Source: a gamma proteobacterium symbiont of Ctena orbiculata (GTDB lineage Bacteria > Pseudomonadota > Gammaproteobacteria > Chromatiales > Chromatiaceae). Taken from it: a stretch of 33,491 nucleotides of DNA. The notes below the pieces were generated by a model. It saw nothing but the letters and a program-made list of their open reading frames with translations. It was not told the DNA's origin and made no database searches. Positions 21,676-28,263 of this stretch are shown here, piece by piece (within the stretch, counting starts at the first letter, position 1; each line of letters begins with the position of its first letter). The stretch covers positions 1 to 33,491 of the forward strand of contig NATV01000076.1 of the NCBI GenBank assembly GCA_003094535.1. Direction: 5' to 3'. Both the position numbers and the translations under genes were made by a program.

Positions 21676-22455
21676 CTACGATGTTCCGATCTCCGGTGTT
21701 GTGATTTTCTGCTGTTGCATCCAACCACCCATGAGCGATGCTATCGCCAGGGTGTAGACGATCATTGCCCCTGCCGGCAGATCGAATAGCGCGGCCAGCA
21801 CCAATCCCAACCCATATCCCGTTGCCGCTATCAGATAGCCGAGGAAATCGGCTCCACTATCCTTCTGCCGGACAGCCAATGCGGGAAGAATGAGGGTGGC
21901 GAAGACCAGAAAGATCCCAACCAGTTGTACGGAGGCGGTGATAGCGACGGCAAACAGCAGATAAAAAAGTAGTTGCGAGCGTTTGCGCAAAGGCGAGAAC
22001 CACAGTGCAAGCACGGCTACATAGAGGAGCGCTACTGGAATAATCTGCTGATAGCCGACCCACAGTATCTGACCCACCAGCAGTTCCCTCAGCCGCTCCC
22101 CGCCATGGGGATTGGCCGCCAGTAACAGCACGCTGCCGCTGGACGCGAGGATGAAGAGGCAACCGATCAGGGCCTCCTGGATCTCCGGCCAGCGGCTCTC
22201 GGTGAGGTGGAGCAGATAGGCCGCGAATACTGCAGCGCTGACCGCGATCAACTGAACCTGCCAGCCTCCGGGTTCCCAATCCAGGGTATGGGCCGCCACC
22301 AGACCCATACCCGCAGTCTGTGCCACCGCCAGATCGAGAAAAATGATTCCCCGTTTCAGCACCTGCCGTCCCAGGGGAACATGGGTGGATGCCACCACCA
22401 GTCCGGCCAGAAAGGCAGGACCCAGGATTGTGACATCAAGACCCTCCCAACTCAC
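21676..22455 (-). CDS. Metal (zinc) ABC transporter permease, second copy
   Basis: A 259-aa integral inner-membrane protein of the ABC-3 (ZnuB/TroC) family. About seven to eight hydrophobic helices are visible, with the family patterns RGIIFLDLAVAQTAGMG near the N-terminus, LVGQILWVG in the middle, and FATLILPALAVRQ near the C-terminus. The GTG start overlaps the stop of the upstream binding-protein gene (GTGA), so the two are translationally coupled. No ATPase gene follows on this strand. It may use the ZnuC encoded in the divergent operon (inference). Zinc is the likely substrate from the Zur-box context; manganese or iron cannot be excluded. Confidence 0.88.
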   Translation of the reverse strand: MSWEGLDVTILGPAFLAGLVVASTHVPLGRQVLKRGIIFLDLAVAQTAGMGLVAAHTLDWEPGGWQVQLIAVSAAVFAAYLLHLTESRWPEIQEALIGCLFILASSGSVLLLAANPHGGERLRELLVGQILWVGYQQIIPVALLYVAVLALWFSPLRKRSQLLFYLLFAVAITASVQLVGIFLVFATLILPALAVRQKDSGADFLGYLIAATGYGLGLVLAALFDLPAGAMIVYTLAIASLMGGWMQQQKITTPEIGTS

Positions 22456-23357
22456 GGTATCACCTCGAGCAGGCGTTTCAGGGTTTCATCGAACAGGGTA
22501 AAAAGATCGACGACACCCTCGGCGCCACCTACCGTATAGGGGAGTTCAACGGCGGGTATGCCGGTAATCTGCGACAGGCGCTTGGCTGCCCTTGGACTCT
22601 GGTAAGCGGTATAGATGATGGCGAGAGGCGGCTCCTGCTGCAGCCTTTTTTTCAGTTTGACGATATGTCCGGATGACACCGGCAAGCCGGGCTTTGGCTC
22701 CAACGATCCTGCCCTGATGATCCCGAGCCAATCGAAGAAATACTCCCAATCCTGGTGATGAACGACCAAGCGCGCACCCACCAGGGGCAGCGCACGCGTT
22801 TTCCACCGCTGCAGCGCCTCCTCCCAACTTTGGGAAAACTCATCATGACGCTTGCGATAGTAGTCGGCATTGGTTGGATCAAGGTTTGCCAGACGATCGC
22901 TCAGGGCAGTGGCGATGGTCGACAGCCTGCGCGGATCGAGATGAACGTGGGGATTGCCCGAGGCGTGGATATCCCCCATGGAGCGATCCAAGCTGTCGGG
23001 AATGCCGAGGCGCTCGATCTGATCCGCCGCCTCGAAATAACCCGGCTGCCCCCGCAGAACCTTAGGATTGCCGGCCTGGCGTTGCAGCATCGGCAACCAG
23101 CCGATCTCCAATTCGGCACCGCTGCAGACCAGCAGGTCGGCGCGCCTCACCTTGGCAATGAGGCTCGGCCTCGCCTCGATGCGATGGGGATCCTGATAGG
23201 CGGTGGTTGCGGACACCACCTTCACCCGATCACCACCCAGGGTCTCGGCGAGGGATGCCCACTCCGGCTCGCAGGCAAAAACGTTCAACGCGGCAAGACT
23301 CGATTTGGTCAGCCCCATTGCCAGTACCAATAGAATAATTCGATAGTTAAGCCTCAT
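22452..23357 (-). CDS. Metal ABC transporter substrate-binding protein, ZnuA-like without His-rich loop
   Basis: A periplasmic cluster A-I metal-binding protein, 301 aa, with a signal peptide (residues 1-22, ending SSLA). Candidate ligands by position are His58 (YQDPH), His137 or His139 (GNPHVHLDP), and His200 or His201 (VVHHQDWEYF). The usual fourth ligand Asp (ELDPLG in ZnuA) is replaced here by ELPYTVGG, so Glu271 may serve. There is no His-rich loop, unlike the ZnuA at 25064. The ATG at 23357 has AGGGG seven nt upstream and lies 10 bp beyond the porin stop; ATG 23360 is the alternative. Encoded with an outer-membrane protein before it and a permease after it. Confidence 0.88.
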   Translation of the reverse strand: MRLNYRIILLVLAMGLTKSSLAALNVFACEPEWASLAETLGGDRVKVVSATTAYQDPHRIEARPSLIAKVRRADLLVCSGAELEIGWLPMLQRQAGNPKVLRGQPGYFEAADQIERLGIPDSLDRSMGDIHASGNPHVHLDPRRLSTIATALSDRLANLDPTNADYYRKRHDEFSQSWEEALQRWKTRALPLVGARLVVHHQDWEYFFDWLGIIRAGSLEPKPGLPVSSGHIVKLKKRLQQEPPLAIIYTAYQSPRAAKRLSQITGIPAVELPYTVGGAEGVVDLFTLFDETLKRLLEVIP

Positions 23358-23367
23358 CATCCGACCC

Positions 23368-24567
23368 CTAGAATTTATGTGCGCCATGGGGCCCAAGGCT
23401 CATGACAAACTGCAGTGTCAGGATATCGTCCGACTCCTCGTACGAGTCATCTTTGGCATACTGCAACCTCAACCTGCTGTACTCGCTATGGGAGTAGTCG
23501 GCCATCAAGGTGACCCGCTCCGGCGTATGGCCCTCGTCATCGAGTCCCGCCTCGGCGAGCACCTCCTCATCCGATCCCTTATTGTCCGCCTCAAGCCAGT
23601 CATAGCGAAGTCCGACACGCCAGCGGGGCATGAACTGGTAGACCGCCTGCAGATACCAGCCCTTCTGTTCGCCATCGTAGGTGGTCGCTTCCGGTGAAGC
23701 CGAACCATCATCCATAATCACATCACCATCTTCATCGCGGATAAAGTACTCGCCCTGGAGCTTGAAGTTGCGCTCGCTGGCATTACCGCGCGGTGCCCAT
23801 TTCCATACGAAATCGATGCCGCTGACCCGGCTGTCGCCGCTGAAGGTCGGCACCTCTTCCGCCTCGCCTTCATGGGCATGTCCACCTGAGGTGCGGTTTT
23901 CCACATCGGCCCGCCAATGGGAGAGACCCAGCTGCCAGGCGTGACTCACTCCAATATCGCCACCGATCTTGGCGAAGAGAGTGCTCGCGCCCTTGCCGTC
24001 ATTACTGGCGCCACCGGCGGGGAAGCGTTCGCCCCGCAGCAACTCACCTCCGACCTGCAGATAGATATCGGTGGGGGCAACCCAACCGATCTGCACGCCG
24101 TCATCGATCAGCTGTTCGCCAAACAGGCCCCGATAGATCAGGGGTGCATCGACAAAGTCCCAAGCGTGTCCATGCTGCTGATTAAGATAGCCGATAGCGG
24201 AAAAGAAGCGGCCGGCCCTGATGCTCAGGCCATTGCCCAGTGCCTGGGTTTCGATAAATGCCTCTTCCAGCTCCACCTCCGTCTCCCCTTCGTGATCTGC
24301 AATCGCGGTGGTGAGCTTGCCGTAAAACAGGTCGTCCACGTTAGCGCTGATGGCCAGTTCATTGTGACCGAGATGCAGTCCTTCCTCGCCGCGTCCCGCT
24401 TCACCACCGAGCATGAAACCGGGCAGCTCGTATTCAGATTCATTATCGAATGCGCTGTAACGACCATCCAGAATCAGGCTGATTTCAGGATTGAAGGAAT
24501 CCACCGCAATAGCGTTGGTGGTCAGAGCCAGTGACACAGCAGAGGCAAGAGAAAGCCGTAAAAACAT
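23368..24567 (-). CDS. Outer-membrane beta-barrel protein of the zinc operon (porin-like)
   Basis: A 399-aa exported protein with a signal peptide (MFLRLSLASAVSLALTTNAIA). Alternating aromatic/polar strands run throughout, for example NGLSIRAGRFFSAIGY, GWYLQAVYQFMPRWRVGLRYDW and SRLRLQYAKDD. The C-terminal phenylalanine (HGAHKF) is typical of barrel substrates of the BAM machinery. There is no TonB box or plug domain, so it is porin-like rather than a TonB-dependent receptor. A His/acid-rich stretch (GGHAHEGEAEE) lies in a likely loop and could bind zinc (inference). GGAG precedes the ATG. It is second in the leftward operon and 10 bp ahead of the metal-binding protein, so a role in outer-membrane zinc entry is likely. 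Confidence 0.82.
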   Translation of the reverse strand: MFLRLSLASAVSLALTTNAIAVDSFNPEISLILDGRYSAFDNESEYELPGFMLGGEAGRGEEGLHLGHNELAISANVDDLFYGKLTTAIADHEGETEVELEEAFIETQALGNGLSIRAGRFFSAIGYLNQQHGHAWDFVDAPLIYRGLFGEQLIDDGVQIGWVAPTDIYLQVGGELLRGERFPAGGASNDGKGASTLFAKIGGDIGVSHAWQLGLSHWRADVENRTSGGHAHEGEAEEVPTFSGDSRVSGIDFVWKWAPRGNASERNFKLQGEYFIRDEDGDVIMDDGSASPEATTYDGEQKGWYLQAVYQFMPRWRVGLRYDWLEADNKGSDEEVLAEAGLDDEGHTPERVTLMADYSHSEYSRLRLQYAKDDSYEESDDILTLQFVMSLGPHGAHKF

Positions 24568-24644
24568 GATGATTCTCCAACAGAGAGTGGAGCGTGCATA
24601 GGCGCACCCTCCCTTAATGAAACAGATTGTGTTTTATCTCTGAG

Positions 24645-24917
24645 TCAGATGGAGAATGGCGGGGCCCGGCTAGAATAGTGGCTTCTCGACCCCTCAATGA
24701 AAACCGACGCCGATTGGGAAGGGATGGGGAGGTAATCCCGATTGAGGCTGAGGTATTGGGATAGGGAGACAACACCCTGACCTTGAGCATGTCCCAGCAG
24801 ACAGATCTCGCAGACCTCATCATGATCGGCATCATGCTGATGATACCGGTGATCTATCCACCCGCCCTGTGCCATGAGAAAGCAGAGGACAAGCAGTGTG
24901 CATGGTACTCTTCTCAT
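24645..24917 (-). CDS. Small secreted His/Cys-rich protein, candidate zinc chaperone
   Basis: A 90-aa protein starting MRRVPCTLLVLCFLMAQGG, a signal-peptide-like N-terminus. A metal-ligand-dense segment HRYHQHDADHDEVCEIC follows (His23, 26, 28, 32; Cys36 and Cys39) with His43 behind. The C-terminus ends SRAPPFSI. Small exported proteins of this look occur beside zinc-uptake genes and are sometimes annotated as zinc chaperones; that name is from memory and the function is inferred. It is the first gene left of the Zur-box-like palindrome (start-to-palindrome distance about 82 bp). A TTG at 24929 is an alternative start. It precedes the barrel protein by 77 bp. Confidence 0.68.
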   Translation of the reverse strand: MRRVPCTLLVLCFLMAQGGWIDHRYHQHDADHDEVCEICLLGHAQGQGVVSLSQYLSLNRDYLPIPSQSASVFIEGSRSHYSSRAPPFSI

Positions 24918-24998
24918 CTCGACTTTCAATCCTGTATCTTGAGGACGAGTTTTGGCGGCATGGTATTGAGCTCAATGCCAATCGCGAACGGATAGCAA

Positions 24999-25017
24999 AT
25001 GTTATAATATAACGTAA
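24999..25017. promoter_or_regulatory. Zur-box-like operator between divergent zinc operons
   Basis: AATGTTATAATATAACGTA contains the perfect palindrome GTTATA-A-TATAAC (25001-25013). This closely matches the gammaproteobacterial Zur operator, whose E. coli znuA/znuC site has GTTATAATAT. A TATAAT (25003-25008) falls inside it, so bound Zur would block a rightward promoter. Its place between the znuA and His/Cys-rich protein genes, with zur itself in the cluster, supports control of both operons. Confidence 0.85.
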
Positions 25018-25063
25018 CATAGTGGAATAAATTTTATCAATCCAGGACAGCGTACGCGTACTC

Positions 25064-26017
25064 ATGGGAAAATCGCGGATATATCTGCTAGCGGCACTGC
25101 TGCTTCTCGGCCCTACAGGCACGAGCTTCGGGGCACTGAATGTGGTGGTCAGCCTGAAACCGATCCATTCCCTGGTGGCGGCACTGATGCAGGGTGTGGC
25201 GGAACCGAAGCTGTTACTGACCGACGCTCAGTCTCCGCACAGCATGACGTTGAGACCGTCGCAGATGAGAATGCTGACGGATGCTGACCTCATCGTCTGG
25301 ATCGGCCCTGCCCTGGAACCGTCTCTCTCTCAAGTTCTTCAATCCGATCGATACCGGGCAGCGCTGGTCAGCCTGATCGATGTGCAAGATCTCCATCTGT
25401 TGCCTATTCGCGAGCACGAGGCGTGGCAGTCCCATGGCCATGCCCATCACCAAGAGCATACACAACCGGACAGCGCTTCTGAGGCTCCGATCTACGACAG
25501 TCATATCTGGCTTTCGCCGGAGAATGCAGTCCGGATGGTTCGCTATCTGACCCGGATTCTGACCGGACTGGATCAATCCCATCGCGAGCAGTACATGGAA
25601 AACAGCCGTGCCCTGCTGGCACGGCTGCAGACCTTGGACGATCTGATCCGCGTCAAACTCGAACCGATAAAAAATATCCCTTACGTGGTGTTTCACGACG
25701 CATATCAATATTTTGAAGCCCACTATGGACTGAACACGGTGGGCAGTGTCAATATCGATCCGGATCGGCTCTCCGGCCCCCGGCATATCCATCGCCTGCA
25801 AGAGACCATTCGGCGCACCAAGGCGCGCTGCCTCTTCAGCGAACCCCAGTTCGAACCGAAGATGGTTCACACCCTGGTGGAGAAGCTCGGGCTGGGGAGC
25901 GCCGAGCTGGATCCATTGGGCCAACAGCTGGCAGCCGGCCCCGACAGCTATTTCATCCTGATGAAGGGGCTCTCCGACAACCTGACCGGCTGTCTCTCCA
26001 GGGAGATGAATCAGTGA
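25064..26017 (+). CDS. znuA: Zinc ABC transporter substrate-binding protein ZnuA
   Basis: The periplasmic zinc-capturing protein of ZnuABC. The 317-aa precursor has a signal peptide (about residues 1-23) and the expected ligands: His59 (QSPHSMTLRPS), His147 (YDSHIWLSP), His211 (VVFHDAYQYF) and Asp283 (ELDPLG). A His-rich loop (HEAWQSHGHAHHQEH, 118-132) lies between the first and second ligand regions. Cys256 and Cys310 match the positions of the C-terminal disulfide. It is the first gene right of the Zur box. The ATG has only a weak Shine-Dalgarno sequence. Confidence 0.95.
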   Translation: MGKSRIYLLAALLLLGPTGTSFGALNVVVSLKPIHSLVAALMQGVAEPKLLLTDAQSPHSMTLRPSQMRMLTDADLIVWIGPALEPSLSQVLQSDRYRAALVSLIDVQDLHLLPIREHEAWQSHGHAHHQEHTQPDSASEAPIYDSHIWLSPENAVRMVRYLTRILTGLDQSHREQYMENSRALLARLQTLDDLIRVKLEPIKNIPYVVFHDAYQYFEAHYGLNTVGSVNIDPDRLSGPRHIHRLQETIRRTKARCLFSEPQFEPKMVHTLVEKLGLGSAELDPLGQQLAAGPDSYFILMKGLSDNLTGCLSREMNQ

Positions 26018-26523
26018 AATCGAACAAACATCCAACAAATTTTCCCAGCGCCGATCATGATCACAGGCGTTGTGTGGCTAGTGCCCTGGACAAGGCTGAG
26101 AGTTACTGCGCTGCCCAGGGTGTCCGCCTGACCAAGCTGCGCCACCGCGTGCTGGAACTGATCTGGGCCAGTCATCGACCGGTCGGCGCCTACGACCTGC
26201 TGCAGCAGCTGACCCTGGAGGGCCACAAGGCGGCGCCGCCCACGATCTACCGCTCCCTCGACTTCCTCCTCAACAACGGACTGATTCACCGCATCAACTC
26301 GCTCAACGCCTACGTCGGCTGTGAGCACCCGGGGCTCGATCATGCGGCACAATTTTTCATCTGCGGCGCCTGCGGCCAGGCCGCCGAACTGGATGATGCC
26401 AGGATAGAATCGGCGATCATCGGTCATGCGAAACGCATCGGATTCACCATTGAGCGAAAAACCATCGAGGTCAGCGGCACCTGCGCCAACTGTCAAGATC
26501 AGCAGCGTGATCGCCAGGGATGA
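26014..26523 (+). CDS. zur: Zinc uptake regulator Zur (Fur family)
   Basis: A zinc-sensing repressor of 169 aa. The N-terminal winged helix has [31 protein letters not shown] and [20 protein letters not shown] (recognition helix). The C-terminal dimerisation domain has two structural zinc pairs, Cys117/Cys120 (CGAC) and Cys157/Cys160 (CANC), plus Cys103 and nearby His residues for the sensory site. The GTG start overlaps the znuA stop (GTGA), and its own stop overlaps the znuC start. It therefore autoregulates through the upstream box. Confidence 0.95.
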
Positions 26524-27290
26524 ACGAAAAGATGACACCGCTGCTGGAAGCCAGGGAGATCAGTATCAGACTGCAGGGCCGACAGCTCCTTGAGCGGGTC
26601 AGCCTGCAGGTAGGCCAGGGAGAGATCGTCACCCTGATCGGACCCAACGGAGCAGGCAAGACCACCCTGGTACGGATCATCCTCGGCCTGCTGAAGGCCG
26701 ATCAGGGAGAGGTTGTTGTGAAGCCGGGTGTGCGCATCGGCTATATGCCTCAACAGCTTGCCCTGTCTGAAAACATGCCTTTGCGGGTGGAGCGCTTTTT
26801 GTCCCTGGGAGCAGACAGGTCAGCCAGCGATTTTGCAACCATCGTCGATGAGCTGCTTATCGGCAAGCTGCTGCGGCAGCCGATGCAACGGCTCTCCGGC
26901 GGCGAGCGCCAGCGTGTCCTGCTGGCCCGGGCACTGATGCGGCGACCCGAGCTTCTGGTCCTCGACGAGCCGGTACAGGGTGTGGATGTCACCGGCCAGG
27001 CGGCACTCTACTCGTTGATCACCGAGATACGTGAACGTTTCGGATGCGGGGTACTGATGATCTCCCACGATCTCCATCTGGTGATGGCCACCACGGATCA
27101 GGTGCTCTGCCTGAATCAGCACGTCTGCTGCTCAGGGCACCCCGAGAGCGTCAGCCAGCACCCCGCCTATCTCGAACTGTTCGGGGCGCCCGCCAGCGCC
27201 AGACTGGCGGTCTACACCCACCATCACGACCATACCCACGACATCCACGGCGATGTGGAAACGGAGTCTGAGGAGCACTCCCATGGATGA
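26520..27290 (+). CDS. znuC: Zinc ABC transporter ATP-binding protein ZnuC
   Basis: The ATPase that powers zinc import. The 256-aa protein has Walker [10 protein letters not shown] (41-49), signature LSGGERQRV (125-133), Walker B LLVLDEP (145-151) and the switch His in SHDLH. The tail is His/acid-rich ([23 protein letters not shown], from about 233), as in other ZnuC proteins, and may sense or buffer zinc. The ATG overlaps the zur stop. It is the only ATPase gene in the island, although two permeases are encoded. Confidence 0.96.
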
Positions 27291-28074
27291 CTTTCTGCTG
27301 CGGGCGCTGATCGCCGGCCTGGGGGTCGCACTGGTGGCGGGACCCCTGGGGGTGTTCGTGGTGTGGCGGCGCATGGCCTATTTCGGCGACACCCTCGCCC
27401 ATTCAGCCCTGCTCGGGGTCGCCCTCGGTTTTCTCCTCGGCATCAACCTCAATCTCTCGGTGATCCTGCTGGGCATAGTGCTGGCGCTGCTGCTTGTCGC
27501 CATGGGCGGCAACCGCCAGCTGTCGCAAGACACCCAACTCGGCATCCTGGCCCACAGCGCGCTCTCCCTGGGTCTGGTGGTGATGGCGTTTCAGACCTCG
27601 ATCAGGGTCGATCTGATGGGCTATCTGTTCGGCGATATCCTGGCGGTCACCGCCAGCGACCTGCTGTGGGTCTGGGGTGGCGGACTCTGCGTGCTGCTGG
27701 CCCTGGGCCTGTTCTGGCAACCCCTCCTCTCGCTGACGGTGCATGAAGAGCTGGCCCAGGTCGAAGGCGTGCCGGTGGCCAGGATGCGGCTGCTCTTCAT
27801 GCTCCTCATCGCCCTGGTGATCGCGGTCTCGATGAAGATCGTCGGGGTGCTGCTGATCACCTCCATGATGATCATTCCGGCCGCGGCGGCGAGGCGCTTC
27901 AGCCGCAGCCCGGAACAGATGGCGCTGATCGCAGCCGGCATCGGCGCCATCGCGGTGGCATTGGGACTGGCCGGTTCCTGGCACTGGGACACCCCCGCCG
28001 GACCCTCGGTGGTGGTCGCGGCGGCGCTGCTATTCGCTGCAACACAGCTCGGTGGCAAAACTGGATATCCATGA
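27283..28074 (+). CDS. znuB: Zinc ABC transporter permease ZnuB
   Basis: A 263-aa inner-membrane permease of the ABC-3 family, starting [50 protein letters not shown]. This contains the typical first-helix and R-R-M-x-Y-F-G-D-x-L-x-H-S patterns. About eight hydrophobic helices follow, including GYLFGDIL and [20 protein letters not shown]. The ATG at 27283 overlaps the znuC stop (ATGGATGA); the 10-residue upstream extension in the open frame lies within znuC and is not family-like. It closes the rightward operon. Confidence 0.95.
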
Positions 28075-28122
28075 TCCTTCACTGAACTACTGATTTGCTG
28101 ACTATTTAACAGTACCACTCGA

Positions 28123-28232
28123 GTCATTGCGACGTTAGCCGTATAGGAAAGTGTCGGCCGCAGGGATGCGGCCGTCAAGCGCCCAGGGATGGGTTTACAG
28201 CGTCTTTCCTATACGGCTAACGTCGCAATGAC
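28123..28232. repeat. Foldback element with 29-bp perfect arms (element 1)
   Basis: The arms 28123-28151 and 28204-28232 are perfect 29-nt inverted repeats (beginning GTCATTGCGACGTTAGCCGT). The 52-nt centre holds a second hairpin, CGGCCGC-AGGGAT-GCGGCCG (28155-28174), and a smaller CCC-AGGGAT-GGG. It lies between the convergent ends of znuB and the 388-aa gene and could act as a two-way terminator. No transposase or duplicated target site is visible. Confidence 0.85.
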
Positions 28233-28263
28233 GATCTCAGAAATTGAACCAACACCAACGACT

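Follow-up and report, generated by a model that had tools for sequence, protein, structure and literature searches.

The divergent island and its second permease

The window analysed here, the whole of a 33,491-nucleotide stretch of contig NATV01000076.1 from a gammaproteobacterial symbiont of Ctena orbiculata, contains a divergent island with two permeases of the ABC-3 family of ATP-binding cassette (ABC) transporters (Table 1). The right arm encodes znuA-zur-znuC-znuB and the left arm reads, from the centre, a small His/Cys-rich protein, a barrel, a binding protein (SBP2) and the second permease (perm2), followed by thrS. Gene calls and layout were obtained from open reading frames (ORFs), Pfam and NCBIfam, which were all in agreement. 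According to the ORF calls, the right-arm genes overlap by 4, 4 and 8 bases in turn. No ATPase gene was found between perm2 and thrS by ORFs, Pfam or NCBIfam. An earlier note, made from the sequence alone, had described both arms in this way, including the few-base overlaps and the lack of a left-arm ATPase, and its account of the genes holds. Relatives carry the same island, zur included, for example in records named Candidatus Thiodiazotropha (L176 and L178; loci are numbered with L and genomes with G), and both here and in the relatives that share it znuC lies about 4 kb from perm2.

Table 1. Genes and sites of the island, in positions of the window
Feature	Position	Strand	Basis
perm2, ABC-3-family permease without coupling-helix segment (ZnuBII-like)	21676-22455	-	PF00950, 60 bits, over cut-off
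perm2 residues 153-160, short turn replacing the coupling-helix segment	21976-21999	-	AlphaFold2 model and alignments
znuB ExxAxxxG segment, coupling helix by homology, missing from perm2	27724-27786	+	Profile alignments
SBP2, ZnuA-like periplasmic metal-binding protein (ZnuAII-like)	22452-23396	-	PF01297, 132.8 bits; no His-rich loop
Probable outer-membrane beta-barrel (Omr-like)	23368-24567	-	399 aa; weak PF07642 (BBP2) and PF00593, both below cut-off
Small secreted His/Cys-rich protein	24645-24929	-	ORF; no Pfam or NCBIfam match
Zur box between the arms	25000-25014	.	Palindrome, 1 mismatch to Zur-like pattern
znuA	25064-26017	+	PF01297, 209 bits; has His-rich loop
zur	26014-26523	+	PF01475; Zur model NF008646, below its cut-off
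znuC ATPase	26520-27290	+	NF007090, 324 bits, over cut-off
znuB canonical permease	27283-28074 (ORF opens 27253)	+	NF007089, 301 bits, over cut-off

Loss of the coupling-helix segment and a changed metal site in perm2

The PF00950 match makes perm2 an ABC-3 permease, but the match is split in two, with profile positions 143-167 skipped, a feature that the earlier note had overlooked. The length from anchor to anchor across the docking segment was 68 residues in 53 of 53 canonical ABC-3 permeases, compared with 44-53 in 187 of 191 cassette permeases (49 in 150 of them), which are thus 15-24 residues shorter. Comparison of the perm2 family with the canonical family by hhalign gave a 99.7 % probability of homology and one clean gap over a stretch with the motif ExxAxxxG, whose A and G are shared by at least 90 % of the 19 sequences of the canonical alignment (A4). 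In the A4 profile this stretch aligned with LGDEEAHYLGV of HmuU (4g1u, E 0.0015) and with LDEKEAKALGV of HI1471 (2nq2, E 0.04). We take it to be the coupling helix, the ATPase-docking element of type II importers. Coupling helices are described as important in PsaBC and MntBC in part of PMC11779740. An AlphaFold2 model of perm2 (mean predicted local distance difference test score 93.5, predicted template modelling score 0.88) has helices at residues 135-152 and 161-179 with one five-residue helical turn between them; perm2 therefore has no coupling helix at this position. The coupling segment is likewise missing from the divergent SBP2-perm2 pairs L306-L313, which come from a different class of the phylum; SBP2 was found in 8 of these 8 loci and a piece of the barrel in 3.

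The metal site of the permease also differs. MntC requires the triad Asp47-His51-Asp94 (PMC8487065, consulted in part) and Asp46 and His50 of PsaC coordinate manganese (PMC11779740, likewise). The D, H and D of this transmembrane triad were present in 41, 51 and 50 of the 53 canonical permeases. Perm2 does not have it; cassette permeases instead carry D (one residue earlier), Q and E, corresponding to D41, Q46 and E94, each in all 190 sequences with a residue at that position. A further residue, H25, was found in 177 of 190 cassette permeases and in no canonical one.

The ratio of non-synonymous to synonymous substitution rates (dN/dS) of perm2 was 0.11-0.17 against three relatives, with 0.08-0.11 for ZnuB and 0.10-0.12 for ZnuC, so perm2 is under purifying selection. 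This bears on the idea that perm2 is a ZnuB paralogue in decay, for which its weak Pfam score, one broken cassette (L129) and a dN/dS of 0.87 against its nearest relative, L171, can be cited, the last from very few changes (dS 0.03). Decay is nevertheless very improbable given the low ratios against the three other relatives, the contribution of a Vibrio homologue, vpa1307, to growth (PMC3794297, seen in part), and the grouping of the cassette permeases in one clade with members in two phyla and a gene order that has been kept.

Trees were reconstructed with FastTree and, for a smaller sample, with IQ-TREE. The cassette permeases formed one clade, with a support of 0.94 for 107 sequences in FastTree and an ultrafast bootstrap of 94 for 28 sequences in IQ-TREE. 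Its sister was the permease of L173, which is accompanied by an ATPase (ultrafast bootstrap 88). The L173 and L354 permeases share Q46 and E94 with the cassette, and that of L173 also has the PHG motif, but this ABC-3 subgroup has an adjacent ATPase and the full 68-residue region. Because of this sister position and these shared residues, the ancestor of the cassette was most likely an ATPase-bearing ABC-3 transporter. The cassette permeases with a longer anchor-to-anchor region, of 61-65 residues, were not at the base of the clade (FastTree, weak support). These constitute the clade L164-L167 (G230, G122, G132 and G184), and no ABC ATPase match was found in their fetched neighbourhoods.

ATPases beside the cassette and elsewhere in the genomes

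At 1e-5, 104 of the 369 class genomes gave perm2 relatives, some being ZnuB cross-hits, as did 44 of 398 genomes of a phylum-wide sample at 1e-20; at least 566 were confirmed in a wider search. The loci fetched consisted of 79 from class genomes, with L173 as a control, and 80 from named records. The two sets overlap (L113 and L193 are the same contig), and 152 distinct C-terminal halves of perm2 are represented among the 159 loci. SBP2 was located upstream of perm2 in 158 of 159 loci and the barrel in 154, with some barrels cut by contig ends. Four of the five loci without a barrel (L106, L228, L248 and L253) have less than 1 kb of upstream sequence, while the fifth is the broken cassette L129, in which SBP2 is in two pieces and the barrel is missing. 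Apart from small proteins upstream of the barrel in some loci, no other general neighbour family was detected within the compared stretch.

Of the 158 cassette loci (those with SBP2 and perm2), 3 have an ABC ATPase no more than 1.5 kb from perm2, and none of these is ZnuC-type; of the canonical ABC-3 loci hand-picked as controls, 40 of 40 have one at that distance from their permease. Two of the three (L157 and L158) have FetA-like ATPases, below the model cut-off, followed by a permease-like ORF, and the third (L207) has an ABC-F protein. The survey that the earlier note had suggested, of whether an ATPase accompanies the trio of barrel, binding protein and permease, thus indicates that the cassette as a rule does not encode a cognate ATP-binding subunit with its permease. 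In 29 further loci from the phylum sample, no ABC ATPase was found within about 1.5 kb except in L286. Vibrio campbellii (L314) and, in a second phylum, the campylobacterote Sulfurovum mangrovi (L315) also carry the cassette; no ZnuC-like ATPase was found in the 12.7-kb stretches of these two loci. The Sulfurovum record labels the products as 'zinc ABC transporter substrate-binding protein' and 'metal ABC transporter permease'.

The earlier note had proposed that ZnuC drives both permeases, or that the second one uses an ATPase encoded elsewhere. In the present genome PF00950 matched perm2, ZnuB, a permease in C102 and, weakly, a protein of a BtuC-type system; the C102 permease, which belongs to the other canonical ABC-3 system of this genome, adjoins its own ATPase and binding protein, and the BtuC-type system has its own ATPase. 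The ZnuC model NF007090 gave one match at 1e-35, ZnuC itself. Ten other proteins were classified among 71 ATPase matches, and they included two ABC-F proteins, LptB, a haem-type ATPase beside BtuC-like genes, and polyamine, sugar and nitrate types; three of the ten had no model at 1e-75, and neighbouring genes served to place the C102 ATPase. These ten of the 71 matches showed no unpaired ABC-3 ATPase, and the C102 ATPase stands beside its own permease, so that the search gave no sign of a dedicated ATPase elsewhere.

The same question was addressed in 72 cassette genomes, namely those of the 104 with at least 90 % completeness and a substantial perm2 match (in one of them, G232, a stop lies inside the match). 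In 36 of the 72, perm2 was the best ABC-3 match (E 1.8e-8 to 2.9e-29) and no canonical permease was found. A ZnuC match at 1e-35 was present in 29 of the 72 and missing from 35 of the 36 perm2-only genomes; the remaining one, G062, has its match at a contig end and carries the broken cassette L129. In seven single-contig perm2-only genomes, searched for ZnuC-like ATPases down to 1e-20, the closest ZnuC-like protein was LptB, over the NCBIfam cut-off in 7 of 7; two of the seven, G122 and G132, belong to the clade with the 61-65-residue region. ZnuC was consequently rejected as the general partner of perm2, since 36 of the 72 genomes gave no canonical permease, 35 of these 36 gave no ZnuC match at 1e-35, and LptB is the closest protein in the single-contig ones. 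By a hand count, a canonical ABC-3 permease (best E <1e-35) is present in about 198 of 370 class genomes and in 36 of the 72 cassette genomes, which indicates no positive association between the cassette and canonical systems.

As a general rule, therefore, the proposal that ZnuC drives both permeases is not supported, although ZnuC may be shared within this one genome. A wider version, in which perm2 borrows ZnuC where it is present and another shared or divergent ABC ATPase otherwise, is unlikely but is the most serious competitor. Sharing of ATPases is known: MsiK serves several permeases, and FhuC is reportedly another ATPase that does so. Borrowing agrees with the proximity of znuC (about 4 kb) in this genome and in the relatives that share the island, and the searches of other genomes would have missed a divergent ABC-3 ATPase of the C102 kind. 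The C102 ATPase scored lower against ZnuC (64.7 bits) than LptB did (78.2 bits) although it serves an ABC-3 permease, and a divergent ATPase could therefore hide in the seven single-contig genomes. Borrowing is opposed by the perm2-only half of the cassette genomes, by the difference between canonical and cassette loci in adjacent ATPases, and by the missing coupling segment, which leaves perm2 without the docking site that a borrowed ATPase would be expected to use.

Left-arm partners, zinc regulation and the proposed route of import

SBP2 belongs to the ZnuA family of binding proteins by its PF01297 match, and its relatives with solved structures are of ZnuA/PsaA type. The barrel scored 19.9 bits against the TonB-receptor barrel PF00593 (cut-off 27) and the Pfam scan listed no plug domain, so it does not qualify as a TonB-dependent receptor. 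Across 74 barrel sequences, an invariant HxH motif (H132 and H134) and a C-terminal GAHGAHxF with two invariant His are conserved, and no solved relative was found by sequence search. The small proteins encoded directly 5' of the barrel in part of the loci fall into families that cover 26, 15 and 5 loci.

A Zur box was found between the arms, in line with the divergent, Zur-controlled island that the earlier note had proposed. At up to three mismatches 0.21 matches to the Zur pattern are expected by chance, and two or more occurred in 7 of 100 shuffles, one palindrome counting twice. Three sites with 0-1 mismatch exist in the genome, all by zinc-linked genes. Of the other two, one separates a CobW/COG0523 gene from a dksA-like gene in C125, and one precedes two DUF1826 genes and a NicO gene in C102, in a region that also holds ZrgA-family and znuA-like genes. 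When up to two mismatches are allowed, the pattern barely exceeds its reversed control in the genome (7 versus 6 per strand). One ZrgA-family ORF of this region (C102:15952-16716, or L037:11956-12717, in G000) opens with about 35 residues that by eye resemble the N-terminus of Zur/Fur, as if a zur remnant had been fused in frame; a second ZrgA gene (C102:11451-12002) has a Zur-like site with two mismatches nearby.

Other loci have a second palindrome, CCnATAAGCAn6TGCTTATnGG, upstream of the barrel (17 of 144 loci: L197, L200, L192, L236, L245, L213 and 11 others). It lies 163-340 bases 5' of the barrel ORF (425 in L189), in the place of the Zur box, and a genome scan for it was unspecific. In the window, a stretch of about 28 bases that includes GACGTTAGCCGTATAGGAAAG was noticed by eye to return in inverted orientation at 28120-28235, 3' of znuB, and is possibly a small repeat element.

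The cassette itself is already known from zinc-starvation genes of Vibrio. The relevant passages of PMC9817125 place omr, znuAII and znuBII of V. parahaemolyticus in the predicted Zur regulon, report that zinc deficiency raised their expression 1034-, 543- and 283-fold, and ascribe to znuAII a minor role once zrgA is deleted. In another strain, the binding protein vpa1307, identified with znuAII in PMC9817125, helps growth when zinc is depleted, with a contribution from its conserved His (PMC3794297, in the part consulted). The Vibrio genes (VP_RS21430-21420; vpa1307) follow the order of the cassette, with the barrel first and then the binding protein and the permease, and this order recurs in the V. 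campbellii locus; the match to this family is based on the V. campbellii cassette and on residues encoded by vpa1307 primers, compared by eye with the V. campbellii SBP2. The system is called a metal ABC transporter permease with a TonB-dependent outer membrane receptor, and the missing ATPase, the missing coupling helix and the wide distribution are not mentioned in the relevant passages of these papers. The remark in the earlier note that the coupling of a porin-like protein to a loop-less binding protein is less described than ZnuABC is thus fair, except that Vibrio homologues had been published. No paper describing an ATPase-free ABC-3 permease was found by title or abstract opening, in a search that left subscription papers and supplements mostly outside.

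In comparison with ABC-3 importers of the ZnuABC/PsaBCA type, the cassette has the same binding-protein and permease families, with a Zur box here, but differs in having neither an ATPase at the locus nor a coupling helix, and D-Q-E, with the first D shifted by one, instead of D-H-D. Taken together, these features make it rather more probable than otherwise that the left arm is a complete zinc-uptake operon whose importer is fed by a binding protein, works independently of an ATPase and is derived from an ABC transporter. The barrel would let zinc across the outer membrane, perhaps aided by the small His/Cys protein, SBP2 would capture it in the periplasm, and perm2, having lost its ATPase and coupling helix, would pass it to the cytoplasm without ATP hydrolysis. 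A system spanning both membranes, as the earlier note had envisaged, is therefore probable. The driving force might be the membrane potential together with cytoplasmic zinc buffering, or co-transported protons. By calculation, a potential of -150 mV supports a gradient of about 1.2 x 10^5-fold for a 2+ ion, and cytoplasmic zinc is tightly buffered, so ATP would not be needed thermodynamically. We infer zinc as the substrate in this organism, the independence from ATP, the energy source and the role of the barrel. Mechanistic analogies, with unrelated folds, are provided by TRAP transporters, ZIP uniporters and solitary energy-coupling factor (ECF) S components, in which import is fed by a binding protein or proceeds free of ATP.

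Several points weigh against an ATPase-independent importer, in addition to the hidden-ATPase argument and the high dN/dS against L171. Loss of the coupling helix is no proof that perm2 binds no ATPase, the AlphaFold2 model is of a single chain, and 4 of the 191 cassette permeases, all divergent, retain 61-65 residues between the anchors. In L286 a canonical ABC-3 ATPase-permease pair adjoins perm2 and runs towards it. The remaining 36 of the 72 cassette genomes do have canonical ABC-3 systems, and the ZnuC model at 1e-35 misses 8 of 36 genomes that have a canonical permease. Only 16 of 148 loci (0.6 expected) have a Zur site with up to two mismatches 5' of the barrel, and 11 of these 16 are this island or close relatives. 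Finally, deletion of znuAII alone in V. parahaemolyticus RIMD2210633 gave no growth defect (PMC9817125, relevant passages).

SBP2 and perm2 might also be no zinc importer by themselves, with perm2 acting as a sensor or forming a mixed dimer with ZnuB that has one working docking site. In favour of this, a single Zur box here probably governs the joint induction of the two permeases, but perm2 is the only ABC-3 permease found in half of the 72 genomes and its residues at the triad positions are invariant, which makes this explanation improbable. Beyond the single locus, the independent importer may represent a family of ABC importers turned into binding-protein-dependent secondary transporters or uniporters, which discarded the ATPase and coupling helix, rewired the metal site, spread as a barrel-binding protein-permease cassette and became the sole ABC-3-type metal importer in many Proteobacteria; this broader proposal is held more tentatively, at slightly less than an even chance.

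These results suggest that what is new is not the cassette but the missing motor and the missing docking site. Such genes are labelled 'metal ABC transporter permease', which is an annotation issue where perm2 is the sole ABC-3 permease, as in half of the 72 genomes. Coupling driven by ATP is what defines an ABC importer. If the interpretation is true, an ABC descendant that is conserved and under selection, yet has neither an adjacent ATPase nor the docking helix, would suggest that the architecture can run motor-free, and would let experiment ask what ATP is for in zinc import.

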